Positions 2,036-42,045 of a stretch of DNA of 42,045 nt are shown piece after piece. The notes beneath the pieces are model-generated. The model searched no databases and had not been told where the DNA came from. It worked only from the letters and a program-made list of their open reading frames with translations. The DNA comes from a virus. Position 1 is the stretch's first letter. Every line of letters starts with the position of its first letter. Where the stretch lies: the IMG/VR virus record IMGVR_UViG_3300028595_000003, positions 1 through 42,045 of that record; one strand, written 5' to 3'. The translations under genes were made by a program, and so were the position numbers.

Positions 2036-3212
2036 TTACACAACTGGATATGCTGGTACTGGGAAGTCAACAGCACTACTAGAACTGTTAGATACCCTAC
2101 CGACAGAAACTAGTGTAGTGTTAGCACCTACTCACAAGGCACTAACTCGTTTATCAACTGCTTATGAAGGTGATATAGAGCTAAGAACCATTCACTCAAT
2201 CTTAGGGTGGATACCAGGTATCAATGAGAATGCGGAGCATATATCACACATTGACACAACTATTAAGCTGGCGAATTCAATGGCTGAGTATAGAAATATA
2301 GTTATCGACGAGGCTGGTATGATGTCTGAAGATATGCTAATGGACCTTACAGGTAAAATAGAAGAGATGTGTGACTTTGAGACAGACCACATAACCTTAC
2401 ACTTATTCTTGGACCCTTATCAGCTATTACCTGTTAAAGGAGTTCAAATACAAACTGACCCTACAACAACTACTCACTTAACTACTCAACACAGAGCAGA
2501 GAGTCCTGATGTTGTAGCACTGTTTACGAAGTTTGTTAACTACCTTGAGGGTACTAACTCTATGGACTTATCTACTCCTAGTAGTCAGAATGTTATACAC
2601 ATTAATAGTATTGAAGGTTTTAAGAAGGGTGATAGACTCTTAGCATATACTAATGCAGCTGTAGGTAAGTATAATCAGATACTCTCAGAGTACTTAGGTA
2701 TAACCTCATATGTAGGGCAAGAGGTACAACTGGGTTCACTAACAGACTTATATATAGTTGATAAGTTTGTAAAGCCTAGTTATGAGAAGCTCTTAGATGC
2801 ATATAACAATAATACGCTTATGTTACAAAACTCACAGATTAATAAGAAGTTCTTAGAGTCTTCACTTAAAGCACTTATAAAGAATAAACATATACGGTTT
2901 ATACAATCTGGTGGACTTATTATACCTGTGATACCAGGCATTGGGGAAGCTTACTTAATTCGTAATAAAGCTAAAGAAGCTGCTATCAGCGACCGTAAGA
3001 AGTTCCAAGATGTTTATGCACTCAATAGAGCATTCACTATGGATTATAGTTTTGCTAGCACTGTTCACAAATCTCAGGGCTCTGAGTTCAATAGAGTATG
3101 GATTGACAAGACTGATATACAGAAAAGTATCTTCGGCGGAAGCTATAGAAACTATGCTCGACTAATGTATGTAGCTATTAGTCGTGCTAAGCAGACGGTG
3201 TTCATATTATAA
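2025..3212 (+). CDS. RecD/Dda-like SF1B DNA helicase
   Basis: A 395-residue ATP-dependent helicase that would translocate 5'-3' on single-stranded DNA, like T4 Dda and the RecD family. Motif I (GYAGTGKST) is at residues 8-16, motif Ia near 34-40 (A-P-T-H-K-A), motif II (IDEAGM) around 94-99, motif III (FLDPYQLLPV) around 128-137, motif V (STVHKSQGSEF) near residue 345, and motif VI (YVAISRAK) near the C-terminus. All key motifs are intact and the length fits Dda-like proteins. The start has TAGGAGA at 2013-2019. It is the last gene before a 201-bp gap holding two promoters. Confidence 0.93.
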   Translation: MKINYTTGYAGTGKSTALLELLDTLPTETSVVLAPTHKALTRLSTAYEGDIELRTIHSILGWIPGINENAEHISHIDTTIKLANSMAEYRNIVIDEAGMMSEDMLMDLTGKIEEMCDFETDHITLHLFLDPYQLLPVKGVQIQTDPTTTTHLTTQHRAESPDVVALFTKFVNYLEGTNSMDLSTPSSQNVIHINSIEGFKKGDRLLAYTNAAVGKYNQILSEYLGITSYVGQEVQLGSLTDLYIVDKFVKPSYEKLLDAYNNNTLMLQNSQINKKFLESSLKALIKNKHIRFIQSGGLIIPVIPGIGEAYLIRNKAKEAAISDRKKFQDVYALNRAFTMDYSFASTVHKSQGSEFNRVWIDKTDIQKSIFGGSYRNYARLMYVAISRAKQTVFIL

Positions 3213-3225
3213 TTTTTAATATTCG

Positions 3226-3248
3226 TTTAAATATTATTTAGATATAAT
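3226..3248 (+). promoter_or_regulatory. Promoter, TTTAAA-N11-TATAAT type (upstream of tandem pair)
   Basis: TTTAAA at 3226-3231 and TATAAT at 3243-3248 are separated by 11 bases that end in ATTTAGA. The same arrangement recurs at 3301, 35174 (minus) and 37232 (minus). The preceding bases TTAATATTCG also recur upstream of the sites at 35174 and 37703. It is shaped like host sigma-70 promoters of Campylobacterota, with a -10 box and phased T/A tracts and no -35. Confidence 0.7.
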
Positions 3249-3300
3249 ATTAGTACGATTTAATTAATTAAATTAAAATATTTATTTCGATTAATTTTCT

Positions 3301-3323
3301 TTTAAAGAAGATTTAGATATAAT
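3301..3323 (+). promoter_or_regulatory. Promoter, TTTAAA-N11-TATAAT type (downstream of tandem pair)
   Basis: TTTAAA at 3301-3306 and TATAAT at 3318-3323 are spaced by 11 bases ending in ATTTAGA. It lies 75 bp after the first site. A transcript starting 6-8 bases after the -10 would begin almost exactly at the leader hairpin (3334-3385), which supports this as the main start. Confidence 0.75.
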
Positions 3324-3333
3324 ATATTTATAA

Positions 3334-3385
3334 TTAATCACCACTGGAAGACGGTGGATAAACTATTAAACTCATCAGTGATTAA
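3334..3385 (+). ncRNA. Structured 5' leader of the 3414 gene
   Basis: TTAATCA at 3334-3340 can pair with TGATTAA at 3379-3385. Inside it, CCACT at 3341-3345 pairs with GGTGG at 3353-3357, with one G-U pair. The element starts within a few bases of the predicted transcription start, so it could act as a 5'-end mRNA stabiliser or a translational control structure. No known riboswitch class was recognised. Confidence 0.45.
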
Positions 3386-3413
3386 ATAATTACTGAAACT
3401 TAAAGGAAATATT

Positions 3414-3863
3414 TTGGCAACAAAAAAAGAAATTCACGCAACGGTAACAAATGAAGTAGCAGCACTATGTACTGCAGAAGGTGTAGATGAGTCTACAGTA
3501 GAAAAGTTAATGGCAATCTTAGATACTAATCTTGCTCCTAAAACTGGTGGTGCAACTATTAAAATAGAAGATGTTTACAATGAAGAAGATGATACTCTTT
3601 TATGTTCTGTATCTGGCGTTTGGTTACCAGCAACTGAAGAATACTTCTACGCTGAAAAAGCTGAAGGTAAAGGTATCAAAGGTCTTAAACGTGTATCTAA
3701 ACAAGCTGAGTCAATCCGTAAAGCTGCTGTTAAAGTTCTTAATGCAACTGAAAAAGCAATTATGGCTGACGTTCTTGGTGGTGAGATGAGTCCAGAAGAT
3801 GGTAAAGAAGCTCTTGAAGCTGCTAAAGCAGTTAAGCCTGATTACTCAAGCGTATCTGCATAA
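3414..3863 (+). CDS. Paralogous 149-aa phage protein, copy A
   Basis: A 149-residue protein starting at TTG 3414, with AAAGGA about 9 bases upstream; no ATG is available near the site. It begins M-A-T-K-K-E-I-H and has the block I-L-D-T-N-L-A-P-K-x-G-G at about residues 35-46. Both are repeated in the 149-residue protein at 38030-38479, so the two are paralogues. The middle (L-C-S-V-S-G-V-W-L-P) looks like half of a small metal-binding fold, and the C-terminal half is helical and Ala/Lys/Glu-rich. It lies just before the SSB gene, behind its own promoters, and is flanked by structured RNA. Its role may be DNA- or RNA-binding regulation; function is unknown. Confidence 0.75.
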   Translation: MATKKEIHATVTNEVAALCTAEGVDESTVEKLMAILDTNLAPKTGGATIKIEDVYNEEDDTLLCSVSGVWLPATEEYFYAEKAEGKGIKGLKRVSKQAESIRKAAVKVLNATEKAIMADVLGGEMSPEDGKEALEAAKAVKPDYSSVSA

Positions 3864-3947: not shown

Positions 3948-4012
3948 ACAAGGCTTAGACTAATACATAGTGACTGTACCAAAACTAAAACAAGTAAAAC
4001 AAAGGAAAACAC

Positions 4013-4624
4013 ATGTCAACAAAGATTAAAACTCCAGTAGGCGAACTAAGATACGTATTCATCAAAGGTGAAGGTCGTAACCAAGCAATGCCTGGACAAC
4101 CAGAACGTATGCAATTCGTAGCATCAATAGTACTTAAGAAAGATAGTGCACAACACAAAGCTTTATTAGCTGAGATTAATAAAGAGTGGGATGTATACAA
4201 AGCTAACAACAGTCTTAAACCAGCACAGCAACCAAAAACAAATGGTATTAAACCTGTGATGGATAAAGAGACTGGTGCTGAAACTGATTATGTTCTTGCA
4301 ACATTCAAAACAAATACTAAATGGCCTGATGGTAAACCACAAGTAGTTAAAGTATTTGACCATAAAGGTAATGACATTACTGTAGCTGCTACTAATGCTG
4401 CTTGGTCTATTGGCTCAGGTTCAACGGGTGTTATACACGGTTCAGCAGTAGGAAACGATGCAGGCGGTGCACATAAAGTAACACTATACTTAACTGCAGT
4501 ACAGATTGCTAAACTAGTTAAATATGAAGGTGATGCACCAGACGTTGAAGAAATGGAAGGTGAAGACATCGACCTAGGTGAAGAAGCAGTTGCTGCTATT
4601 AGTGACGAAGCTCCTGCTCTATAG
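4013..4624 (+). CDS. Single-stranded DNA-binding protein (T7 gp2.5-like role)
   Basis: A 203-residue protein. The N-terminal 150 residues have OB-fold-like beta structure (T-P-V-G-E-L-R-Y-V-F-I-K-G-E-G at 7-21 and a V-V-K-V-F-D-H-K-G-N strand-loop around 110). It ends in a strongly acidic tail (residues about 175-203, E-M-E-G-E-D-I-D-L-G-E-E) followed by hydrophobic residues, as in phage and bacterial SSBs that recruit replication proteins by the C-terminus. It sits between a strong leader and the DNA polymerase gene. AAAGGA precedes ATG 4013. The SSB assignment rests on tail, fold pattern and context, not on a signature motif. Confidence 0.75.
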   Translation: MSTKIKTPVGELRYVFIKGEGRNQAMPGQPERMQFVASIVLKKDSAQHKALLAEINKEWDVYKANNSLKPAQQPKTNGIKPVMDKETGAETDYVLATFKTNTKWPDGKPQVVKVFDHKGNDITVAATNAAWSIGSGSTGVIHGSAVGNDAGGAHKVTLYLTAVQIAKLVKYEGDAPDVEEMEGEDIDLGEEAVAAISDEAPAL

Positions 4625-6391: not shown

Positions 6392-7282
6392 ATGGAAGAG
6401 TTCGTAGAAATAGAGTTAGATGACCAAGGTCAAGTTATGCCACAAAAGATAGACAAAGTTGCATTAATAGATGCTGATACTATAGCATACATAGCTTGCC
6501 TCAATACTGAAGTTGCTGCTGAAGTACTTCCACAAGAGATGTATAGTGAAATGGAATGGGATGCTATTATCAATAACAAGCAATATGATGAAGAGCTTCA
6601 GGTTATTTATGAGACTGATGTCAATCAAGCACTATTAAAGGCTAATGATAAGCTTCAGCGTATACTAGATAAAACTGGTTGCACTAGTTATGAGTTGCAC
6701 TTCACTGGTGGCAGAGATAACTTTAGATATAAAATATTCCCTGAGTATAAAGCTAACAGAACTGGTAGAAGTCCTGCAGGTCTCTTTGAAGTAAAGAAAG
6801 CAATGTGTGAACAACTTGGTGGTACTATTCATGAGGGTTGGGAAGCTGACGATATGGTAGTATATCTCAGAAATCTACACCCTGAAAAGTATATGCTAGT
6901 GGCTATCGACAAAGACGTACTAAACTCAGTTGAAGGCACACACTTTAACTACGATGAGTCTAGTATGTATAACATTGATATGAAGTTTGTTGAAGTTAGT
7001 AAGCATACATCACTTACCTGGAGATATTTACAGACTCTTATGGGTGACAAGACAGATGGTATTATTGGCTTACACGGTATTGGTCCTAAGAAGGCTGAGA
7101 AGATTATTGATGGTAACTTTACGCACTCTGATATATGGAAAGCTGTTGTTGAAGCTTATAAGATGAAAGGCCGTACAGCTGATGAGGCACTACTAAATCT
7201 CAACTTAGTAGATATGAAGCTTCTTAAAGAAGTTGATGGTGAACTTAAAATAGTTCTTAGAACACACGAGGAAATGAAATGA
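6392..7282 (+). CDS. 5'-3' exonuclease / flap endonuclease (T7 gp6-type)
   Basis: A 296-residue PIN-like nuclease that would remove RNA primers and degrade DNA 5' ends. Visible motifs are the N-terminal A-L-I-D-A-D-T near residue 24, the arch region F-P-E-Y-K-A-N-R near 115, the acidic E-A-D-D-M (about 152-156), A-I-D-K-D (about 172-176), and the helix-3-turn-helix M-G-D-K-T-D-G-I-I-G-L-H-G-I-G-P-K-K-A (about 215-233). The length fits phage exonucleases. Its last codons overlap the DUF5664 gene (ATGA), so it is translationally coupled to the nucleotide-modification cluster. Confidence 0.93.
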   Translation: MEEFVEIELDDQGQVMPQKIDKVALIDADTIAYIACLNTEVAAEVLPQEMYSEMEWDAIINNKQYDEELQVIYETDVNQALLKANDKLQRILDKTGCTSYELHFTGGRDNFRYKIFPEYKANRTGRSPAGLFEVKKAMCEQLGGTIHEGWEADDMVVYLRNLHPEKYMLVAIDKDVLNSVEGTHFNYDESSMYNIDMKFVEVSKHTSLTWRYLQTLMGDKTDGIIGLHGIGPKKAEKIIDGNFTHSDIWKAVVEAYKMKGRTADEALLNLNLVDMKLLKEVDGELKIVLRTHEEMK

Positions 7283-8258: not shown

Positions 8259-8581
8259 TGCCTACATTATCTGATTTCTATGAAGATGGCTTAAAAGATT
8301 GTAGTTGGATTAATGGTGATATCTTTACATACTGTGAAGATATGAAAGTATCTATAATAGATGATGTACTTTTAATCTATAATGGTAATGCTAACTTTAA
8401 GTATATAGATACTATCTACACTATGAAAAGAAGTAGAGGTAAAGGTTTAGCTACAAAAGTGTTAAGTAATATAAAAGGTAGAGTAGCTTTAATATGTTCG
8501 GACAAGCTATTAGATTTCTATAAAGCTGAAGGTTTTACTAATGATTTACCTTACAATATTGTAATAAAGGATAACAGATGA
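8258..8581 (+). CDS. Small GNAT-type acyltransferase
   Basis: A 107-residue protein with the GNAT acyl-CoA binding motif R-S-R-G-K-G-L-A-T at 58-66 (the R-x-x-G-x-G/A signature) and the typical late element L-L-D-F-Y-K-A-E-G-F at 84-93. It lacks the usual long N-terminal part, so it is a minimal GNAT domain. It lies between the dCMP hydroxymethylase and the carbamoyltransferase with overlapping stops and starts, which suggests it acts in the same pathway, perhaps acylating a modified base or nucleotide. The Mu Mom protein, which modifies adenine, also has a GNAT-related fold, but no Mom-specific match is visible here. Substrate is unknown. Confidence 0.75.
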   Translation: MPTLSDFYEDGLKDCSWINGDIFTYCEDMKVSIIDDVLLIYNGNANFKYIDTIYTMKRSRGKGLATKVLSNIKGRVALICSDKLLDFYKAEGFTNDLPYNIVIKDNR

Positions 8582-10044
8582 GACTTTTATTAACTCTTGG
8601 ACATAACGCATCTGCAATACTAGAAGGTAACAATACAGTCATAGTTGGGTATGAAGAAGAGAGACTATCTGGTGTAAAAGCTGATAGCTCTTTTCCAGTA
8701 CTAAGCATTAACAAAATACTTGAGTACTATCCTGAGGCTAGATATGAAGTTACAGATATTTTCATTAGTCATTGGTTCTGGTCTTTCAAAGAACTTAAAG
8801 AGACTAAGTATTATAAACCTAAATATATTAAGGCAAATTTCCCAGAAGCTAAAGTTACTTCTGTAGACTACTACAATACGCATCACGACTTACATGCTAA
8901 ATCAGTTTGGAACTTCTTAAATGGAGACAGTAGTGGGCTTACAATAGTTGCTGACGGTTTTGGTAACTTTGGGGAATGTTTGTCACTATATGTAGATGGT
9001 AAACTAAGTCATAGAAGTTATGCTATACATAGTTCACTTGGTTTAATGTATCAGTATGCTATTGGGTATCTTGGTATGAAAGAAAATCAAGATGAGTATA
9101 AACTACTAGGTTATGAGCAGCAAGTTAGCAAAGAATATAAAGCTAACTACGCTCTTAAAATAGAAGAGTTAATAGAAGTTATGACAACTAATCTTCTGGA
9201 AAAATCTGAAATGCAAAAAGGTGATATGACATATATTCTAAATGATGTTAGGTCTGATTGGTATATATTGTTTAATCAGTTCTCACCAGATAGAAGTAGA
9301 CCAGAGATTGCTTATGTAGTACAAACTATTCTTGAAGGTGTTATGTTAAACATAGTCAAACATTATGATATTAAAAACATTAAAGTATCTGGTGGCGTAT
9401 TTTACAATGTTAAACTAAACAATGCTTTATTAAGATTTAGTGATAAGTTTGAAGCTAACCCACTTGCTGGTGACCAAGGTTGTGCTTTAGGTTTTACTAA
9501 TGTTAGATACCAAGACTTATTCTGGGGTAGACGTGAAATTAATAGTTACTCTTCTGATAAACTAATTAGTGATATAAAAACTAATGGGTATGCTGAAGTT
9601 ATGCAAGGTTGGATGGAGTTTGGTCCTAGAGCTTTATGTAATACCACTACGTTAGCAAGACCTACTTTAGAAATGGTTGAGCTAATTAATACTATCAATG
9701 GTCGTGATACTGTAATGCCTATGGCACCAGTAGTAACTAAAAAGTATGCTGAGAAACACTTCAGAGATATTGATAAAGTTACTAGGTCTAAGTACTATAT
9801 GGTTATAGCATTTGACTATATTAGCGTTGATGAAACCACAAGAGGTGCTGCTCACTATGATAGTGATAGAGATGTGTATACTGGTCGTATTCAAATTAGC
9901 AATATGCCTTTTATAGATGATATACTAAAGAAGTTCGGTGGTATTCTCATTAACACTTCACTAAATGCTCACGGTCAGCCAATATTATACGATTCGAATA
10001 ATTATAATATTATGAGACGTATCCAGAGTAATTTTAAGCGCTAA
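8578..10044 (+). CDS. NodU/TobZ-type O-carbamoyltransferase
   Basis: A 488-residue enzyme expected to transfer a carbamoyl group from carbamoyl phosphate, via carbamoyl-AMP, onto a hydroxyl. Family signatures in order are G-H-N-A-S-A (8-13), E-E-E-R-L (26-30), H-H-D-L-H (102-106), D-G-F-G (126-129), S-S-L-G-L-M-Y (152-158), E-Y-K-L-L-G (173-178), S-G-G-V-F-Y-N-V (271-278), G-D-Q-G-C-A-L-G (298-305), M-E-F-G-P-R-A-L (346-353) and N-T-S-L-N (459-463). The family is best known from antibiotic and Nod-factor synthesis. Phage members next to cytosine-modifying enzymes carbamoylate hydroxymethylcytosine. ATGA overlap couples it to the GNAT gene. It is the last gene of the block, followed by a palindrome. 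Confidence 0.93.
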   Translation: MRLLLTLGHNASAILEGNNTVIVGYEEERLSGVKADSSFPVLSINKILEYYPEARYEVTDIFISHWFWSFKELKETKYYKPKYIKANFPEAKVTSVDYYNTHHDLHAKSVWNFLNGDSSGLTIVADGFGNFGECLSLYVDGKLSHRSYAIHSSLGLMYQYAIGYLGMKENQDEYKLLGYEQQVSKEYKANYALKIEELIEVMTTNLLEKSEMQKGDMTYILNDVRSDWYILFNQFSPDRSRPEIAYVVQTILEGVMLNIVKHYDIKNIKVSGGVFYNVKLNNALLRFSDKFEANPLAGDQGCALGFTNVRYQDLFWGRREINSYSSDKLISDIKTNGYAEVMQGWMEFGPRALCNTTTLARPTLEMVELINTINGRDTVMPMAPVVTKKYAEKHFRDIDKVTRSKYYMVIAFDYISVDETTRGAAHYDSDRDVYTGRIQISNMPFIDDILKKFGGILINTSLNAHGQPILYDSNNYNIMRRIQSNFKR

Positions 10045-23277: not shown

Positions 23278-25131
23278 CTATCCTTTTTGTCTAGGTTCTA
23301 CTTTATACTGTATTTCATATACTGTACCAGTACCTTCAATTTCAAACTCAATACCATAACCTTTAGTCACGCCATTACCAAGCTTTAAGTTATACATTTT
23401 ATCACCGGTGACATCTATCTCATTAGCTAAGATACCATCAATAAATACTTTAATATTAAAAGTACCATTATATCTAATGTATATATCTTTATAGTTTTTA
23501 TAGTTAGAATAGCTACCTTCAGTAAAGACTGGCGACTTCCAATGCATTTGCAGTAAATCACCATCGAATAGTCTTTGTAATGTACCATTATAGTACTGAT
23601 ATACATTATCTAGTGCTGTAACTACTTGCTCACCTATAACCTCTATATCTCTAACTATTTGATTGTATCTAAAGTCAAAAGCCATAATTTTATTGCCTAG
23701 TGGGTGATAGTAACTAAGATAATAAATACTGTCATGTACTGCTGCACTATAGATAGTATTGAATGTTAGTTTACCAACTTTAGGCCTACTAACTACTTGT
23801 ATGATACCACCAGAAGTAGTACATAAACCATCTAGTGACATCCATAGTAATTGGTTATCAACAAAGGCAACTGATTGGTGACTAATACAACCTTGAGAAC
23901 TACTAAGTAAAAACTTAGAAAAGCTTGCTGGTGAATTACCTACAACTATGTATGTTTTAAACTTAGTAAATACTAGTAAGCCATTACTCATAGCTCCTAT
24001 ACCTGTTATATCACCATCAAAGTCAATAAAGAACTCAGCTGGCCAGGAGTATGGCTTAGCTATCTCAGTAAAGTATAGCTTATCTCCTACTGCTGCAAAT
24101 AACATAGCATAAGCTTCTGTTAGATACTTTAATCCTTCAACTGGTCTATCGTGGTTTAAACTATCTAGTATAGAGCTACCAGCCAATGATAACACACCAG
24201 TCCCATCTTTATATTCTGGAGTAGCTACTGCTGGGTGGTCAAATTCATGAACTAGAGTATAAGCTGTAAGACCTCCTCCAATTTTATAAAGTCTTATCTT
24301 ATCAATAGTTACATCAGTTTCCGTTGACTTAGGTAATGGAGCAATTATAACATCATTACCAGCGCTATTAACTTCTTCACTAATTGGACTAGGAGGGCTC
24401 TCAATACCATTAGCAGAGTTGTAGTATGTATAGCAATAGGTAAATATCTCTCTATCACTAATATATAAATCTCCTAAAGTCTCAGTACTTTTGGTATCTA
24501 TAATAGTTGCGCCACCAGCTATACTATAAGTAGTTTCTCCAACTTCATAGTAGTTTACACCATCTTCTCTATATAGCTTTATTAAATCACCATCAGTAAA
24601 TGTAGCGATTGGCAAGCCTGTTAAAGTAAAAGTAATTTTCTTACCAGTAAAAGTAAGAGCAACATCACAACTATAATCGAGCTCAAAGGAAGTGCTTAAG
24701 ATGCTACTAAATACTACTAATTTATAGTTATAAAAGCCTTTTATAATATCTCCACCATCTTCTATAGTTATGTCTACATTAGCTGAAATAGTCTCAACTA
24801 ATGATACTGTAGGAGCAGTAGTTGGAGGAAGTATACCAAGCTTACTTAGAGTCAAGTCTTTATAAGATTGTAATATAGTACCATCACTAATATACAGTGT
24901 GTCTCTATACTCTACAAATGTAGCTTCTGTAGGTCTACTAACCCACTCATCATCAGCTTCAAAATAAGTAAAATACTTATCGATAGGTATACCAGTAGAT
25001 ACAGGCCCCTGAATACTAGTAAGAGACCCAGTAGCGTTATCTATATTAGTATATATTTGTGCTTCATTTTCAGCAAGTAAAGACGGGTTTACTCTAATAT
25101 TTTTACCGCCACTAAAGTCTCTTATTAACAT
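23278..25131 (-). CDS. Tail nozzle / tail tube-B-like protein (617 aa)
   Basis: A 617-residue beta-rich protein beginning M-L-I-R-D-F-S-G-G-K-N, a start common in podovirus tail nozzle proteins (compare T7 gp12). Repeated beta-propeller-like blades are suggested by spaced segments such as Y-R-D-T-L-Y-I-S-D-G and L-L-W-M-S-L-D-G-L-C. No catalytic motif was seen. It fits a short, non-contractile tail and lies beside the tip protein gene, which follows after 3 bases. Confidence 0.7.
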   Translation of the reverse strand: MLIRDFSGGKNIRVNPSLLAENEAQIYTNIDNATGSLTSIQGPVSTGIPIDKYFTYFEADDEWVSRPTEATFVEYRDTLYISDGTILQSYKDLTLSKLGILPPTTAPTVSLVETISANVDITIEDGGDIIKGFYNYKLVVFSSILSTSFELDYSCDVALTFTGKKITFTLTGLPIATFTDGDLIKLYREDGVNYYEVGETTYSIAGGATIIDTKSTETLGDLYISDREIFTYCYTYYNSANGIESPPSPISEEVNSAGNDVIIAPLPKSTETDVTIDKIRLYKIGGGLTAYTLVHEFDHPAVATPEYKDGTGVLSLAGSSILDSLNHDRPVEGLKYLTEAYAMLFAAVGDKLYFTEIAKPYSWPAEFFIDFDGDITGIGAMSNGLLVFTKFKTYIVVGNSPASFSKFLLSSSQGCISHQSVAFVDNQLLWMSLDGLCTTSGGIIQVVSRPKVGKLTFNTIYSAAVHDSIYYLSYYHPLGNKIMAFDFRYNQIVRDIEVIGEQVVTALDNVYQYYNGTLQRLFDGDLLQMHWKSPVFTEGSYSNYKNYKDIYIRYNGTFNIKVFIDGILANEIDVTGDKMYNLKLGNGVTKGYGIEFEIEGTGTVYEIQYKVEPRQKG

Positions 25132-37191: not shown

Positions 37192-37231
37192 TGTTTGTCC
37201 TTTGATGATTCTAATACTAGTTAGTTACTCG

Positions 37232-37254
37232 ATTATATCTTGATTATCTTTAAA
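37232..37254 (-). promoter_or_regulatory. Promoter (minus) for terminase genes, TTTAAA-N11-TATAAT
   Basis: On the minus strand: TTTAAA (37254-37249), an 11-base spacer ending in CAAGA, then TATAAT (37237-37232), 40 bases before terS. It begins the late arm. Confidence 0.7.
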
Positions 37255-37275
37255 GTTTGTTTAAACGTTGTTAAA

Positions 37276-37380
37276 GTTTGAAAATCTGTTAGACTCTTTT
37301 AATTAAATAAGGTTTGAAAATCTGTTAGACTCTTTTAATTTAGTTAAATTAAAGTAAGGTTTGAAAATCTGTTAGACTCT
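37276..37380. repeat. Three direct repeats (iteron-like)
   Basis: Copies begin at 37276, 37312 and 37359. Each has a shared 22-base core: GTTTGAAAATC then TGTTAGACTCT. The first two continue with TTTAATT. Start spacings are 36 and 47 bp. They lie just upstream of the terS promoter and could bind a phage regulator, terminase or replication initiator. Confidence 0.85.
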
Positions 37381-37407
37381 CAGGGTGCGTCGCATGAATA
37401 TTTTTAT

Positions 37408-37434
37408 AAGCCCGGTAAGCCCCTGGGGGGGTCC
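37408..37434. other. GC-rich island, candidate cos/pac site
   Basis: In otherwise AT-rich sequence, AAGCCC occurs twice (37408 and 37417). It runs into CCCC-T-GGGG (37420-37428), extended to seven G residues at 37425-37431. Phage cohesive-end sites are often GC-rich with this kind of symmetry and lie close to terS, which starts 217 bp away. Assignment is tentative. Confidence 0.35.
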
Positions 37435-37472
37435 AATATAATATTACAGAATCTTTAAGATTCCAATATAAT
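37432..37472. repeat. Direct repeats flanking a 15-bp palindrome
   Basis: TCCAATATAAT occurs at 37432-37442 and again at 37462-37472. Between them lies the exact inverted repeat GAATCTT-T-AAGATTC (37449-37463). This is a likely protein-binding or processing site. Confidence 0.6.
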
Positions 37473-37496
37473 TTAATGTCAATTTAATAATATATC

Positions 37497-37546
37497 GGTA
37501 TACGCATGCGTGTTTCATTATTATACGTGACGTGCGCACGCGTACC
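37497..37546. other. Cluster of CpG-rich palindromes
   Basis: The perfect palindromes ACGCATGCGT (37502-37511), GTGCGCAC (37532-37539) and ACGCGT (37538-37543) sit within 50 bp, bordered by GGTATACGC and GCGTACC. They contrast sharply with the surrounding AT-rich DNA and precede about 100 bp of almost pure A/T. This arrangement (symmetric sites beside an easily melted tract) is typical of replication origins. Confidence 0.5.
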
Positions 37547-37702
37547 ATAAATAATATTAAATCTTTATTAAATTTTAATATTAATATAATAATTTAATAT
37601 AAATTTAAATTCTTTTTAATATAATTTTAATATAACTTGATATATAATTATTACATCAAAAGGGAATGATTATTAAATCGAATTAAAAAGCTTTAATATT
37701 CG

Positions 37703-37725
37703 CTTAAAGATTCTTTTGGTACAAT
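37703..37725 (+). promoter_or_regulatory. Promoter (plus) for the early small genes
   Basis: CTTAAA at 37703-37708, an 11-base spacer ending in CTTTTGG, TACAAT at 37720-37725, and TTAATATTCG just upstream, as at the 3226 and 35174 promoters. It drives the plus-strand arm. Confidence 0.7.
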
Positions 37726-37754
37726 TTAATTATAAATAAATAAAGGAGTTCGAA

Positions 37755-38029: not shown

Positions 38030-38479
38030 ATGACTAAGAAAGAATTACACACACAGGTACGCACACAAATTGACGAGTTACTAAATACTCAACCAAAGCT
38101 ATCGAAAGCTTTTAAGGAGTCTTTAGTCAAAATTATAGACACTAATTTAGCACCGAAGCAAGGCGGAGGCGGTTCGCAAAATCCTCCGAAGCTCGACGAA
38201 GATGGCAACATTGTTGAAGCATTTTGTCGCTTTCACCAACGCTACGAAGCTGCTGAAGCTATGGTGATATCTAATGGAAAATCGAAAGGCTATTGTAAGG
38301 CTGGGATTAGTGCTTGGAACAAAAACCAAACTAAAGTTAAATCGTTAGAGGCCGAAGCACTAAAAGCAATCTCAGAGGGTGACATAGAAACTGCACAAGC
38401 GAAGTCTAAAGAAGCCAAAGAGACTAAAGAGTCACTCGTGTACGACTATGAAGCTGACTGGGAGACTTTTAACTCTTAA
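38030..38479 (+). CDS. Paralogous 149-aa phage protein, copy B
   Basis: A 149-residue protein with the same length as the protein at 3414-3863, the same start (T-K-K-E-L-H) and the same core block (I-D-T-N-L-A-P-K-Q-G-G at about residues 37-47). Its middle has a stronger metal-site look: E-A-F-C-R-F-H-Q-R-Y-E (about 63-73) and K-S-K-G-Y-C-K-A-G (about 84-92), a C-x2-H ... C arrangement. The C-terminal third is a charged helix. It is expressed from the early promoter and flanked by two TTCG hairpins. AGGAG precedes ATG 38030. Function is unknown. Confidence 0.78.
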   Translation: MTKKELHTQVRTQIDELLNTQPKLSKAFKESLVKIIDTNLAPKQGGGGSQNPPKLDEDGNIVEAFCRFHQRYEAAEAMVISNGKSKGYCKAGISAWNKNQTKVKSLEAEALKAISEGDIETAQAKSKEAKETKESLVYDYEADWETFNS

Positions 38480-38516
38480 GACTATATAAGCGCTCTTCGG
38501 AGCGTCTATTAGAGTT
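38471..38516 (+). ncRNA. Second TTCG hairpin after copy B
   Basis: AACTCT at 38471-38476 pairs with AGAGTT at 38511-38516, enclosing GCGCTC-TTCG-GAGCGT at 38490-38505. Compared with the hairpin at 37961, a T-A pair next to the loop has become C-G on both sides, so the pairing is conserved. No terminator U-tract follows. Confidence 0.65.
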
Positions 38517-38549
38517 TTACTCGACTAAATAATACTTAAAGGATAACTA

Positions 38550-38783
38550 ATGGATAACTATGCACTAATAGATTGCTTCGAAGAGGCAGGAAGACAAGGG
38601 TATATAACTGATTTAATAAATAACGCTGAGTGTAATAGTATGTGCGAGACTTGCCCAGCTGCTGTTGCTTGCGAAGAGCTTAGCACAAATGCTGAAGGCG
38701 ACAAAGAATATTCACTATTTGTAAAGAACTTTAAGAGACTTTTAGAGTCTACAGGATATCTTAAGGAGACTAAAGATGCTTAA
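38550..38783 (+). CDS. Small Cys-rich early protein (77 aa)
   Basis: A 77-residue protein with C29-x3-C33-x2-C36-x5-C42 (N-A-E-C-N-S-M-C-E-T-C-P-A-A-V-A-C), which suggests a zinc or iron-sulphur site. AAAGGA precedes ATG 38550. It overlaps the next gene by 8 bases. A similar cysteine spacing occurs in small phage proteins of unknown role. Confidence 0.68.
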   Translation: MDNYALIDCFEEAGRQGYITDLINNAECNSMCETCPAAVACEELSTNAEGDKEYSLFVKNFKRLLESTGYLKETKDA

Positions 38784-39042
38784 TATAATACTAAAGAGAC
38801 TTTCAACAATCACAGGAGCACCATTAGAGGGTGCTGAGCCTACACGAATACTATTACACGATGATGGGATAACTATAGTGTCAACACGTATTGTAAAGTT
38901 ACGAACTGTTAGGGTCATAACTACTTGTGATGGCACTACTGGAGACTTTGCTAAGAAAGCTAAGAAATTGGCACAACTGGACGATAGTGTTTACGAAACT
39001 TTTGGTAGACTGCAGGACGATGAGTTAACTTCTGAGGACTAA
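38776..39042 (+). CDS. Hypothetical early protein (88 aa)
   Basis: An 88-residue protein with a beta-rich N-terminal half (R-I-L-L-H-D-D-G-I-T-I-V-S-T-R-I-V) and an acidic C-terminus (R-L-Q-D-D-E-L-T-S-E-D). AAGGAG lies 8 bases before ATG 38776. It is the last of the four-gene early cluster and is followed by a hairpin. No domain was recognised. Confidence 0.65.
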   Translation: MLNIILKRLSTITGAPLEGAEPTRILLHDDGITIVSTRIVKLRTVRVITTCDGTTGDFAKKAKKLAQLDDSVYETFGRLQDDELTSED

Positions 39043-39059
39043 ATAGATTTGTTTAGGCA

Positions 39060-39078
39060 CTGTTACTTTTTGTAACAT
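39060..39078 (+). terminator. Terminator-like hairpin after early genes
   Basis: TGTTAC-TTTTT-GTAACA at 39061-39077, a 6-bp stem with a T loop, followed by TATTATTATTTTATT. It probably ends the early cluster transcript. Confidence 0.5.
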
Positions 39079-39380
39079 ATTATTATTTTATTATATCTTA
39101 TATATCATTAAATATCTTATATATCATATAATATCATACAAATCTTAAAGGATGCGTCAGTTTCACTTTATTTTTACGATTGAAAAGGGGAAGGTACAGA
39201 GAACAAATATATTTAAGATATATCTAAAGTTATTTTAAAGTTATTTTAATGGAATTGTTTAAAAAATATCTCATATATCATCTTGTTCTCAAATATATCA
39301 AATATCTCAAATATCATCAAAATCGATTTTTTAATTTTTTATATTAATAAATTTTTTTAATATATAATTAATATAAAAAA

Positions 39381-39389
39381 TTGTATAAT
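39381..39389 (+). promoter_or_regulatory. Extended -10 promoter for the replication operon
   Basis: TTG-TATAAT (39381-39389), preceded by T-rich tracts about one and two helical turns upstream. It has no TTTAAA box at the spacing used elsewhere. Transcription would start near 39396 and run through the repeat array into the HTH and primase genes. Confidence 0.5.
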
Positions 39390-39415
39390 ATTCTCTCAAT
39401 TCCAACACATCTATT

Positions 39416-39570
39416 AGTACACTATTAGTATTCCAACAGAATCTATCAGTATTCTAAGAGACAACATAGTATTCCAACAGAATCTATTAGTATTCCAACA
39501 GAATCTATCAGTATTCCAACATAGTATTCCAACAGAATCTATTAGTACCAAAACATTAGTACACAACCAT
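39416..39570. repeat. Helically phased 21-bp repeat array
   Basis: AGTA units start at 39416, 39427, 39448, 39468, 39489, 39510, 39523, 39544 and 39558. Most spacings are 20-21 bp, two helical turns. Five copies share AGTATTCCAACA, and most are followed by GAATCTAT; the others are degenerate. Each full unit contains the dyad ATTC-CAACA-GAAT. The array sits between the promoter at 39384 and the HTH gene at 39585. It looks like an iteron set or an operator array. Confidence 0.85.
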
Positions 39571-39584
39571 TAAAAGGAGCACGT

Positions 39585-39800
39585 ATGACAGAAGACTACG
39601 AAGCATTCAAAGCTAAAATCAAGGCCAACGAACGAATAGAAGACTACAACTCGCAATTATTAGTACACCGACAATCAATCCTAGAGGATATCCAAGAGCG
39701 CAATCAAGGAGTAGTAGCAAGGGACCTCAACATGAGTCAATCACGCCTAAGCATACTTGTGCCATTTTTAAGAGCCTTGAACAATGACGAAGGAAATTAA
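39585..39800 (+). CDS. Small HTH-type protein upstream of primase (71 aa)
   Basis: A 71-residue protein with a C-terminal HTH-like segment: G-V-V-A-R-D-L-N-M-S-Q-S-R-L-S-I-L-V (about 42-59), the A-x-x-L-x-M-S-Q-S-x-x-S pattern. The N-terminal 35 residues are helical and charged. AAAGGAG precedes ATG 39585. Lying directly after the phased repeats, it is the natural candidate for the protein that binds them, either as repressor or as replication initiator. Confidence 0.75.
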   Translation: MTEDYEAFKAKIKANERIEDYNSQLLVHRQSILEDIQERNQGVVARDLNMSQSRLSILVPFLRALNNDEGN

Positions 39801-39801
39801 C

Positions 39802-41991
39802 ATGCTTATTAGTTACACAACGCTCTCAACGAACAAAGAGCATATTCTCAATGACCAAGAGACTAAGAAAGCTATAATGCCTACACTCTATGCTAAGACG
39901 AATTGGAGGACAAACACGCAGCAAGACACTCTAGCCAATGTCATATCTTTCCAAGCACTAATAGTAATCTCAGGGCCTGACTTATTAGTTATTGACTTCG
40001 ACGACAACGAAGCATTCAAACGTGCACAACTGTTTAACGAGTCACTAACTTCAAAACACAAGTGCAAATTTATAGTTAAGTCATCACGTAGAGGAGGTCA
40101 CTTTTACTTCCAACATAATCCTGATATAGAAGCACCTACAGGGCACACGAAGCAGAACATAGTTGATTATTTAGAGGGTGATAAACACAACATAATTGCC
40201 CCAACAAGTTTTGACCCTGGTAAGACGATATTAGAGCCATACGATACGAACCTTACGCAGTTTAACACAGCCTGGGAAGTGTTTGTGACTCATATGGTAC
40301 TACAGAACTTACCTGAGAAAGCATATAACATAGTACTAAGGTCTAGCCAGAGCCACTCTGATGATAATGTTAGTTTCGTTAAGCAGTACCTCAGTAATCT
40401 GATAACTGATGCTGATTTTAATGCTTATTATAATATACCAACTCCAATACCACCTGGTCAGAGTAACGAGTACTATAAAAATATCTCAACGAGACTTGCG
40501 TGTGATGAGACGGTATCATTTGAAGATTTTAAGTCGGCAATGGAGAAATTTAACGCCTTTCACAAACGTAAGGAGCAGGGAGAGTTATATAGTTGTCACA
40601 TTAATTCAATGACTAACAACGGGTTATGGGCTTACGACGCTGATAAGAAAGTTAATAGTTTTGAGGTATCTCACAAGCTCTATAAAACGCCAATCAGTGT
40701 ATACTATGATATAGACTCAGGAGAGTACTTACTTAGTTACTCAGATCGGGACGGTCAGCCACATCTGCACTGTATTCCAGCACGTGCGAAGTATCTTGAG
40801 CTCATTGAAAAGCTCTCGAGGTTGACCCCGCAGCAACGGAAGACTGATGCGATACCTGCTGTGCATACAGTGACTGACTATTCACTATCGTATGGTTATA
40901 ACACGTCAACAGGCGTTTTTAACAAGGCGGTGACTGGTCCAGAGCTTGCAGCATTTTACGGTACTAAGCCTGATGGTTATACAGTGCCAACGCGTCTCCT
41001 TGATGTGTGTAAGCATATGTGGGGTGAGGAGTATGAGTATCTCCTAGCGTCCACTAAGTATAGGTATAAACACTTTAGGTTTTCACCAGTTGTAACGTTC
41101 TTACAAGGTACTGAAGGTAGTGGTAAAGACTTAACAGTTTGGCTCTTGACTAGGCCGTTCCCAGTACAGTCCCAGCTGTTAGATGCCAGTCTCTTGAATG
41201 ATAAGCACTCGAATTGGCAGACAGAACCAAATGTAATAGTATCTGAAGTTGGTGACTGGCGTGCTATGGATAGAGATAGTCTCCTAGCAAAGGTTAAGAC
41301 AATAGCAGGTTCTAACGGAATAGTAACATTTCGTGGTATGAATAAGACTGCGATAACACAACCATCACTTATTAAGATATGGGTGACTGGTAACAAGTGG
41401 GTGAAGTTGCATACCGATCCGCTGTCACAACGTAGGATACACCCTGTATATATGCCACGACCTCTTAATAAAGAGCTTGGTGGGCCGTATTCAGAAGGTG
41501 AGCTGAGAAGTATATTCTCTCACGAGAGTGTACTGAACTTTTATTATTGGCTTGGGAATGAGTCAGACAGTATACCAGAACTAACACTAGACCAATACAT
41601 AGTACCAACTAGTAGGCACTCGTCAGAGAGTTATGAGATATACCAAGAGAATACTCAGACGATATCTGATACAGTATCACAGTTAATATATTCGAGGGAC
41701 TATAACAAGTTCCAGAAGGCACTTAACTTGTTACACGTTACACTAGATGAGCTTACCTGGAAATATAATGGTAAGACTAACAACTTAGTTATTGCTGTAG
41801 CACGTCTCAAAGATGTTCTCGGTTCTAAAAACTCTGATGATATAGTTATGAAGACTATTGACAGACTAACATCTGAAAAGGAGGGTAACAAAAAGTTGAG
41901 GTTTGATAGAGACTTCCCTGAGAAGTTTATAACATTATACGGTGCACCAAGAGACTTAGAGACTGTAGCACCTATCGATGGACTTGATTAA
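39802..41991 (+). CDS. AEP-type primase-helicase
   Basis: A 729-residue fusion. The N-terminal archaeo-eukaryotic primase domain has the catalytic V-I-D-F-D-D (63-68), the S-S-R-R-G-G-H-F-Y-F block (94-103), and D-Y-L-E-G-D-K-H-N-I-I-A-P (122-134). The C-terminal SF3-like helicase domain has Walker A G-T-E-G-S-G-K-D (about 436-443), Walker B near 476 (V-I-V-S-E-V) and I-W-V-T-G-N near 523 (sensor). ATG 39802, with AAGGA seven bases ahead, is preferred over ATG 39784, which overlaps the HTH gene. It would prime and unwind at the fork. Confidence 0.9.
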   Translation: MLISYTTLSTNKEHILNDQETKKAIMPTLYAKTNWRTNTQQDTLANVISFQALIVISGPDLLVIDFDDNEAFKRAQLFNESLTSKHKCKFIVKSSRRGGHFYFQHNPDIEAPTGHTKQNIVDYLEGDKHNIIAPTSFDPGKTILEPYDTNLTQFNTAWEVFVTHMVLQNLPEKAYNIVLRSSQSHSDDNVSFVKQYLSNLITDADFNAYYNIPTPIPPGQSNEYYKNISTRLACDETVSFEDFKSAMEKFNAFHKRKEQGELYSCHINSMTNNGLWAYDADKKVNSFEVSHKLYKTPISVYYDIDSGEYLLSYSDRDGQPHLHCIPARAKYLELIEKLSRLTPQQRKTDAIPAVHTVTDYSLSYGYNTSTGVFNKAVTGPELAAFYGTKPDGYTVPTRLLDVCKHMWGEEYEYLLASTKYRYKHFRFSPVVTFLQGTEGSGKDLTVWLLTRPFPVQSQLLDASLLNDKHSNWQTEPNVIVSEVGDWRAMDRDSLLAKVKTIAGSNGIVTFRGMNKTAITQPSLIKIWVTGNKWVKLHTDPLSQRRIHPVYMPRPLNKELGGPYSEGELRSIFSHESVLNFYYWLGNESDSIPELTLDQYIVPTSRHSSESYEIYQENTQTISDTVSQLIYSRDYNKFQKALNLLHVTLDELTWKYNGKTNNLVIAVARLKDVLGSKNSDDIVMKTIDRLTSEKEGNKKLRFDRDFPEKFITLYGAPRDLETVAPIDGLD

Positions 41992-42045
41992 AATACAAGG
42001 AGTAAAACATATGACACTATTAGAATACCAGAGACGACTAGAGAA
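41919..42045. repeat. Right copy of 127-bp terminal duplication
   Basis: Identical to bases 1-127. Merging the two copies gives a unique genome length of 41,918 bp and joins the primase-helicase gene (39802-41991) directly to the small gene at 93-272. Confidence 0.95.
42011..42045 (+). CDS. 5' fragment of the 59-aa gene (contig overlap)
   Basis: The start of the small gene whose complete copy is at 93-272. It is cut by the contig end, not by mutation. Its ribosome binding site AAGGAG is at 41997-42002. Confidence 0.9.
   Translation, partial: MTLLEYQRRLE

Follow-up and report, generated by a model that had tools for sequence, protein, structure and literature searches.

The 542-bp noncoding gap at positions 39043–39584 (77% A+T) of the phage record IMGVR_UViG_3300028595_000003 lies before an HTH gene and a primase gene, and its 3′ third is formed by tandem 21-bp repeats (array B), which are real, unusually regular and beyond what chance would produce. 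This array most resembles a docking site, either at a start of genome copying or at a switch of the replication genes. We tentatively favour the first option, in that the gap as a whole may quite possibly serve as replication origin and control region of the HTH-PrimPol operon, in a lambda- or SF3-iteron-like manner. The computed basis comprises two arrays, unstable DNA, a gap that is conserved and holds arrays in relatives, the leader position of array B, and the identity of the primase-helicase (Table 1).

The record (42,045 bases, analysed as a whole and called the window here) has ends overlapping by 127 bp, and because of this overlap it is read as the circular assembly of an essentially complete genome, about 41.9 kb long. 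Judged from its proteins, the phage is a podovirus and distant kin of Kafunavirus KF-1; terminase, portal, major head protein, DNA polymerase A, Dda-like helicase, thymidylate synthase and ligase display 20–38% identity to their podoviral counterparts. Both the proteins and the gene order correspond to those of Kafunavirus KF-1, Vibrio phage VPMS1, Pseudoalteromonas phage PH1 and Dickeya phage Amaethon. These four share the order primase, Dda-like helicase, DNA polymerase A, thymidylate synthase, and their terminases are 37–38% identical to that of the window; on the other hand, their primases are only about 20% identical, and the terminase genes, on the minus strand in the window, lie on the other strand in all four. 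The 21-bp array was looked for in these four phages and not found, and DNA of positions 38500–42045 has no match to known phages. An early 149-residue protein (38030–38479) has relatives in nearly all phages compared; its family often occurs in two copies per genome, the second copy of the window being located at 3414–3860.

Table 1. Features of the window in and around the gap before the HTH and primase genes.
Feature	Positions	Strand	Basis or remark
Array B, tandem 21-bp repeats, consensus TAT(T/C)AGTATTCCAACAGAATC	39412..39566	+	self-match, clustering, layout
Outlying degenerate copy TATTAGTACACCGACA	39658..39673	+	inside HTH gene
Array A, first block, ATATC at 39093, 39102, 39112, 39121, 39131	39093..39135	+	
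Array A, second block, ATATC at 39266, 39275, 39295, 39302, 39311	39266..39315	+	
Candidate unwinding element, third least stable 60 bp of genome	39078..39137		nearest-neighbour sum -53.5
Candidate unwinding element, second least stable 60 bp of genome	39331..39390		nearest-neighbour sum -52.8
Probable -10 of HTH-primase transcript, TATAAT	39384..39389	+	sequence; no good -35
Probable ribosome-binding site of HTH gene, AAAAGGAG	39572..39579	+	sequence
Predicted 71-residue HTH protein (P0001)	39585..39800	+	AlphaFold2 model, weak PDB matches, homologues
735-residue primase-polymerase/SF3 helicase (P0002)	39784..41991	+	motifs, profile, Foldseek
Rival candidate origin/promoter region, TTTGAAAATCTGTTAGACTCT x3	37277..37380	+	repeats in divergent late/early intergenic region 37192–37754

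Array B extends slightly beyond the region first described. Unit by unit it reads TATTAGTACAC / TATTAGTATTCCAACAGAATC / TATCAGTATTCTAAGAGACA / ACATAGTATTCCAACAGAATC / TATTAGTATTCCAACAGAATC / TATCAGTATTCCA / ACATAGTATTCCAACAGAATC / TATTAGTACCAAAA / CATTAGTACAC. A preliminary description of this DNA had counted nine AGTA units, mostly 20–21 bp apart, and this is borne out: the nine units (starts at 39416, 39427, 39448, 39468, 39489, 39510, 39523, 39544 and 39558; span 39416–39561) follow each other in steps of 11, 21, 20, 21, 21, 13, 21 and 14 bp, five of the eight steps being 20–21 bp. Self-match at lag 21 in 39412–39566 is 0.545, above all of 2000 dinucleotide shuffles (mean 0.396, sd 0.021, maximum 0.521), and it is the genome-wide maximum over 155-bp windows. 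The word ATTCCAAC, present in six copies in 39399–39533 and in one elsewhere, is the sole locally clustered 8-mer of the 42-kb genome, and ATTAGTACAC, confined to three places in the genome, borders the array on either side (39413, 39555) and appears once more within the HTH gene (39659). An exact 20-mer of the array has no match in IMG/VR, and a gapped search for the double motif returned 11 contigs, with an array of the full window motif in none of the 11.

An ATTC-N5-GAAT dyad, ascribed earlier to each full copy, is perfect in four of them (39430, 39471, 39492, 39526); it is broken in the copy at 39448, and the copy at 39510 is 8 bp shorter, resulting in the 13-bp step from 39510 to 39523. 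The perfect dyads always read ATTCCAACAGAAT, the sole such 13-mer dyad with at least three copies in the genome. In full copies the half-sites TAGTATTC and GAATCTA follow each other at intervals of about 10 bp in alternating orientation; the dyad arms measure 4 bp, or about 7 if a one-base slip is allowed. Since 27% of random tandem 21-mers hold a 4+4-bp dyad by chance, the dyad alone is weak, non-significant evidence. At 10.5 bp per turn, eight of the nine AGTA units share one phase to within about 1.5 bp, and the ninth, at 39558, points to the other side of the helix (R = 0.84 for the first eight units, 0.63 for all nine), so that the single face proposed for all copies applies to eight. A 21-bp duplication yields phasing automatically, and therefore only the irregular steps of the array are informative in this respect.

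The remainder of the gap carries a second array (array A), absent from the preliminary description, with a phasing of about 9.5 bp. Its ATATC words are spaced 9, 10, 9 and 10 bp in the first block, on one strand only; in 39043–39400 there are 11 forward copies and one reverse copy (shuffle mean 2.0), and 11 was reached in none of 2000 shuffles. Of the three 60-bp stretches with the lowest stability in the genome, the gap contains two (genome mean of the nearest-neighbour sum per 60 bp -73.6, sd 4.6). The one at 39331–39390 directly adjoins array B, and this computed instability supports the earlier suggestion that neighbouring A/T-rich DNA could melt. No exact match to the DnaA box TTWTNCACA is present in the gap; one site with one mismatch (39256) corresponds to the genome background rate. 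Array B precedes the HTH-primase operon, as had been described, and it probably lies in the 5′ leader of the transcript, between the predicted -10 and the start codon 195 nt further on; the -10 supports this earlier placement, though the -35 is poor.

The HTH gene overlaps the start of the 735-codon primase-polymerase gene. The AlphaFold2 model of its product has five helices (residues 5–13, 21–27, 29–38, 41–47 and 52–67; mean pLDDT 89.6) and the conserved motif RNQGxVAxDLN. Structure matches in the PDB are weak (Z about 4, nothing above 4.3) and mostly concern HTH and homeodomain DNA-binding domains. Homologues exist in the relatives L131, L132 and L136, those of L131 and L136 being 38–41% identical. 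In L131, the closest relative, the protein (encoded at 3986–4363) consists of two HTH units in tandem, a duplication of the one unit present in the window, and therefore binding as a dimer or as a pseudo-dimer may differ between the two.

The primase-helicase has the conserved residues D71-x-D73, H106, D128, Walker A G442..K448, N537 and R550-R551, and the primase DxD, H and D, the Walker A motif, the SF3 asparagine and the RR pair are invariant in eight aligned primase sequences. The family profile matches the C-terminal region of NrS-1 polymerase (E 5e-16), and on sequence grounds the enzyme is a homologue of that polymerase. Foldseek lists the NrS-1 CTR as best match, then PriRep1/SaPI5 and the pox D5/E5 helicases (model pLDDT only 57, below 60 in the C-terminal region); as far as the model permits, the enzyme is thus a structural homologue of the SaPI5 primase-helicase. 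In the primase tree the branch of the window is too long for firm placement. No Pfam or PHROG match to lambda O/P was obtained among the HTH protein, the primase and neighbouring early proteins.

Homologous gaps were compared in eight relatives, i.e. L131, L136, L137, L134 (contig G016), L135 (G010), L063 (G024), L061 and L132 (G023), reached via the portal protein, the primase and the early 149-residue protein (alignment and portal scans); viral contigs scanned with one protein alone, the primase or the HTH protein, yielded no relatives. All eight retain the order early genes, gap, HTH-position gene, primase, with other short genes between gap and HTH-position gene in L135 and L063. Their gaps measure 330–636 bp at 72–86% A+T, and at least five hold arrays with motifs differing from those of the window. 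Three share the motif TTYGRTTATT, found with at most one mismatch 9 times in the gap of L134, 14 times in that of L135 and 17 times in that of L063 (2, 4 and 8 times in the rest of the locus), in both orientations and before the primase-polymerase gene. The L134 array occupies positions 3086–3444, corresponding to 24585–24943 of G016. The primases of L134 and L135 are 25% identical, though both gaps carry TTYGRTTATT. The gap of L137 contains 9-bp AGATTTAGT repeats, that of L061 displays significant periodicity at lag 10 (p 0.003), and no significant array was detected in those of L131, L136 and L132. A -10 of the (TG)ATATAAT type is found at the corresponding place in all eight relatives (TATAAT-like, one TACAAT), 6–33 nt before the start codon in seven of them and 96 nt before it in L135.

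Array B was searched across all eight relatives and found in none, L131 and L136 included. A local form of TTYGRTTATT was considered for ATATC and dropped, since nothing matches when one mismatch is allowed and matches at two mismatches are not in excess. A homology of array B to a 17-bp array in L061 or to CTAACATTCCAAC in L137 seemed suggestive by eye and was dropped, because no second cluster came up when all loci were scanned.

Five of the eight genomic TTTGGTTA sites of G016 fall in a 310-bp part of the gap. This word is the published recognition sequence of NrS-1 PrimPol (PMC8718748); the match was noticed after seeing the sequence and is a lead, not a planned test. Reading TTGGAAT on the minus strand of array B as this NrS-1 site was dropped, as TTTGG(A/T)T is unenriched in the window gap; enrichment is confined to L134 and L036.

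For the gap to act as an origin, a phage-coded protein would recognise the array B repeats, probably with dimers sitting on the dyads at a phasing of two turns, and its binding would wrap or bend the DNA. This deformation would strain and open the adjacent A+T-rich stretch with its ATATC repeats, and the primase-helicase of the operon could then load, prime and unwind. Candidate binders are the 71-residue HTH protein or the primase-helicase itself. As array B lies in the leader of the operon, it is conceivable that transcription through it stimulates opening, as at lambda ori, and that bound protein feeds back on the synthesis of replication proteins. Binding, opening and origin activity are steps that we infer.

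We favour the origin on the basis of the array statistics, the unstable 60-bp stretches in the gap (one beside array B), the phased ATATC array, the conservation of the gap in eight relatives with clustered arrays of their own, the TTTGGTTA cluster in G016, the NrS-1/SaPI5-like nature of the downstream enzyme, and the resemblance to SaPI Rep and lambda iterons. This reading is weakened by the confinement of array B to the window, even at HTH identities of 38–41% and a primase identity of 48% (L131), by the lack of an exact DnaA box near array B together with the non-significance of the dyad alone, and by the rival repeat region at 37.2–37.75 kb. In comparison with the spacing in seven of the eight relatives, promoter and start codon seem to be separated by additional DNA in the window, occupied by array B. 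Being downstream of the -10 and apparently an insertion, it may be dispensable for the conserved part of the gap, which may therefore work without it.

Several known systems invite comparison. The iterons of lambda, inverted repeats of 19 bp to which dimers of O bind, are transcribed and have an A+T-rich stretch as neighbour (PMC5043065). Lambda ori contains four such O-binding iterons inside gene O and a 40-bp A+T-rich region, and it is activated by transcription (PMC5043065, PMC7466680). Array B is similar in its units about 20 bp apart, its internal inverted repeats, its low-stability neighbour and its predicted transcription close to replication genes. It differs in having more units and shorter dyad arms, and in its location in a leader, not inside an initiator gene (only one degenerate copy lies inside the HTH gene); no recognisable O or P protein is present among the early proteins scanned. 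SaPI Rep recognises iterons beside its gene and is described as a self-loading initiator (PMC7581432); for SaPI Rep/PriRep and SCCmec Cch2 the helicase is thought to load itself at iterons (PMC7581432). Likewise, the repeats of the window neighbour a gene whose product is an SF3-type (primase-)helicase and, according to the model, belongs to the same structural group. However, the SaPI and Cch2 origins are downstream of rep and have short repeats, whereas array B is upstream, with the HTH gene between array and primase. In a SaPI-type origin a C-terminal domain of the helicase would bind double-stranded DNA and recognise the repeats; the C-terminal region of the window enzyme is modelled at a pLDDT below 60.

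The PLE origin of V. cholerae lies in noncoding DNA close to its initiator gene and consists of semi-palindromic direct repeats, whose binding and necessity were demonstrated by experiment (PMC7145576). The arrangement in the window is comparable, with a candidate initiator gene nearby, but the PLE initiator is of the RepA_N type, a family to which neither the HTH protein nor the primase of the window was assigned. Likeness to NrS-1 consists in the homologous C-terminal helicase region and in the TTTGGTTA cluster of a relative (G016/L134); that word is absent from the window gap. With a plasmid-type DnaA-dependent iteron origin the window shares direct repeats in helical phase (eight of nine units), without exact DnaA boxes. 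By analogy, the region would most likely work like a lambda- or SaPI-type origin, but it is filed as neither, because the scanned proteins include no recognisable O/P and the array lies outside the initiator gene, and because the SaPI origin is downstream of rep. Elements of this kind, iteron arrays next to replication genes of phages, are already known, so that the 'new' origin type suggested earlier is better described as an undescribed member of the kind, in an undescribed phage group.

The main rival to the origin reading is an autoregulatory operator array, which we regard as a serious but less probable explanation. A phage DNA-binding protein (HTH or other) on array B would block or tune transcription of the HTH and primase genes, with the origin elsewhere, for example at 37.2–37.75 kb. 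Array B (from 39412) closely follows the predicted promoter, in a roadblock position between -10 and start codon, a small protein predicted to be of the HTH type is encoded next to it, and the divergent region contains repeats too, as well as the DNA of lowest stability; if this explanation is correct, it would account for throttling of the replication operon. However, nine units over 155 bp exceed the needs of most operators. The arrays of the relatives lie upstream of the promoter, so that autoregulation in a leader leaves them unexplained. Furthermore, L131, L136 and L132 keep gap and HTH family without array B, which speaks against this operator and likewise against the specific link to the 71-residue protein suggested in the preliminary description.

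On composition, the divergent region at 37.2–37.75 kb is an equal origin candidate. It contains the least stable 60 bp of the genome (37547) and the global GC-skew minimum; the skew, named earlier as a possible mark of the origin, is not diagnostic, because its sign switches with the gene strand. The terminase genes adjoin this region, and the early genes run rightwards from it. Its repeats TTTGAAAATCTGTTAGACTCT (37277, 37313, 37360) are 36 and 47 bp apart. Long-period repeats with similar words are found at the matching place in L131 (47-bp unit, 1858–1974), in L134 (49-bp unit, positions 2836–2932 of the reverse complement) and, by eye, in L137 (about 6400–6580); from this sequence comparison the long-period repeats appear to be a conserved element.

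In a further reading, which we consider improbable, origin or promoter function belongs to the conserved A+T-rich gap and its array A, and array B is a lineage-specific tandem duplication of little or no function. Array B is present in one of nine compared gaps, the window only, its copies are near-identical with indels, as from slippage, and an ordinary 21-bp expansion brings phasing for free. Against this stand the strong clustering, the irregular steps (11, 20, 13), mostly within 1.5 bp of one phase, the flanking ATTAGTACAC copies and the recurrence of arrays at this locus in relatives, all of which point to selection.

Quite unlikely, in our estimate, is an element acting in the leader RNA, where the repeats would bind a translational repressor or form regulatory hairpins: array B is in a probable 5′ leader and its + strand folds slightly better than shuffles (z -2.36), but the opposite strand folds better still (z -3.30), as DNA dyads would lead one to expect, there is no match to an Rfam family, and, with the array in no relative, covariation has nothing to compare. 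Dyad arrays occur at plasmid partition sites, and weak matches of the HTH model include ParB/KorB DNA-binding domains (Z 3.5–3.7), but a centromere-like (par) array, or one for host proteins, with a role in plasmid-like maintenance or in taking over the host, is very improbable, given that many unrelated HTH folds score a similar Z and that no ParA, ParB, integrase or repressor family was found among the window proteins scanned (part of the ORFs).

Returning to the origin reading, the relatives suggest a hypothesis that is unsupported by the array of the window itself and that we regard as doubtful: the origin would keep a fixed address before HTH-PrimPol while the iteron sequence is repeatedly replaced, the repeats being start sites of the PrimPol itself and co-evolving with it. 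Among these PrimPol-carrying podoviruses the exchanged iterons would be TTYGRTTATT arrays in some, with the NrS-1-type PrimPol site in them, AGATTTAGT in another, and 21-bp dyads together with phased ATATC in the window. As part of this hypothesis, one enzyme would perform both origin recognition and primer synthesis. Should the gap be an origin, it would provide a defined start place for an NrS-1/SaPI-type primase-helicase in a widespread, unstudied podovirus group. The homologous gaps (TTYGRTTATT in three, AGATTTAGT in one, 21-bp dyads in the window) form a natural series for co-change of initiator and iterons, and also allow one to ask whether PrimPol recognition sites themselves mark the origin.

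Some repeats and genes outside these gaps may be added. The window contains a Nol-like carbamoyltransferase gene (8578–10044), unusual cargo in a 42-kb podovirus. KF-1 (L012, 3538–3785) has a unit of roughly 60–90 bp about three times in a noncoding gap directly following the homologue of the 149-residue protein. In L017 (159–272), another relative, a 21-bp repeat, CTCCCAACCTAAAACAGTGCA, is present five times in noncoding DNA about 2.5 kb upstream of the primase gene. Repeats of the TTTGGATTTTTTGGATTT type, in both orientations, occupy an early noncoding region of L036 (3236–3490; also L035 and L028), where TTTGG(A/T)T occurs six times versus 0.1 expected. One intergenic region of PH1 (L015, 23117–23442) holds ten AGACGTCC and one AGACGTCT, with none elsewhere; the latter is presumably the met-box consensus of E. 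coli MetJ, and this array could be a candidate site for a MetJ-like regulator of the host.
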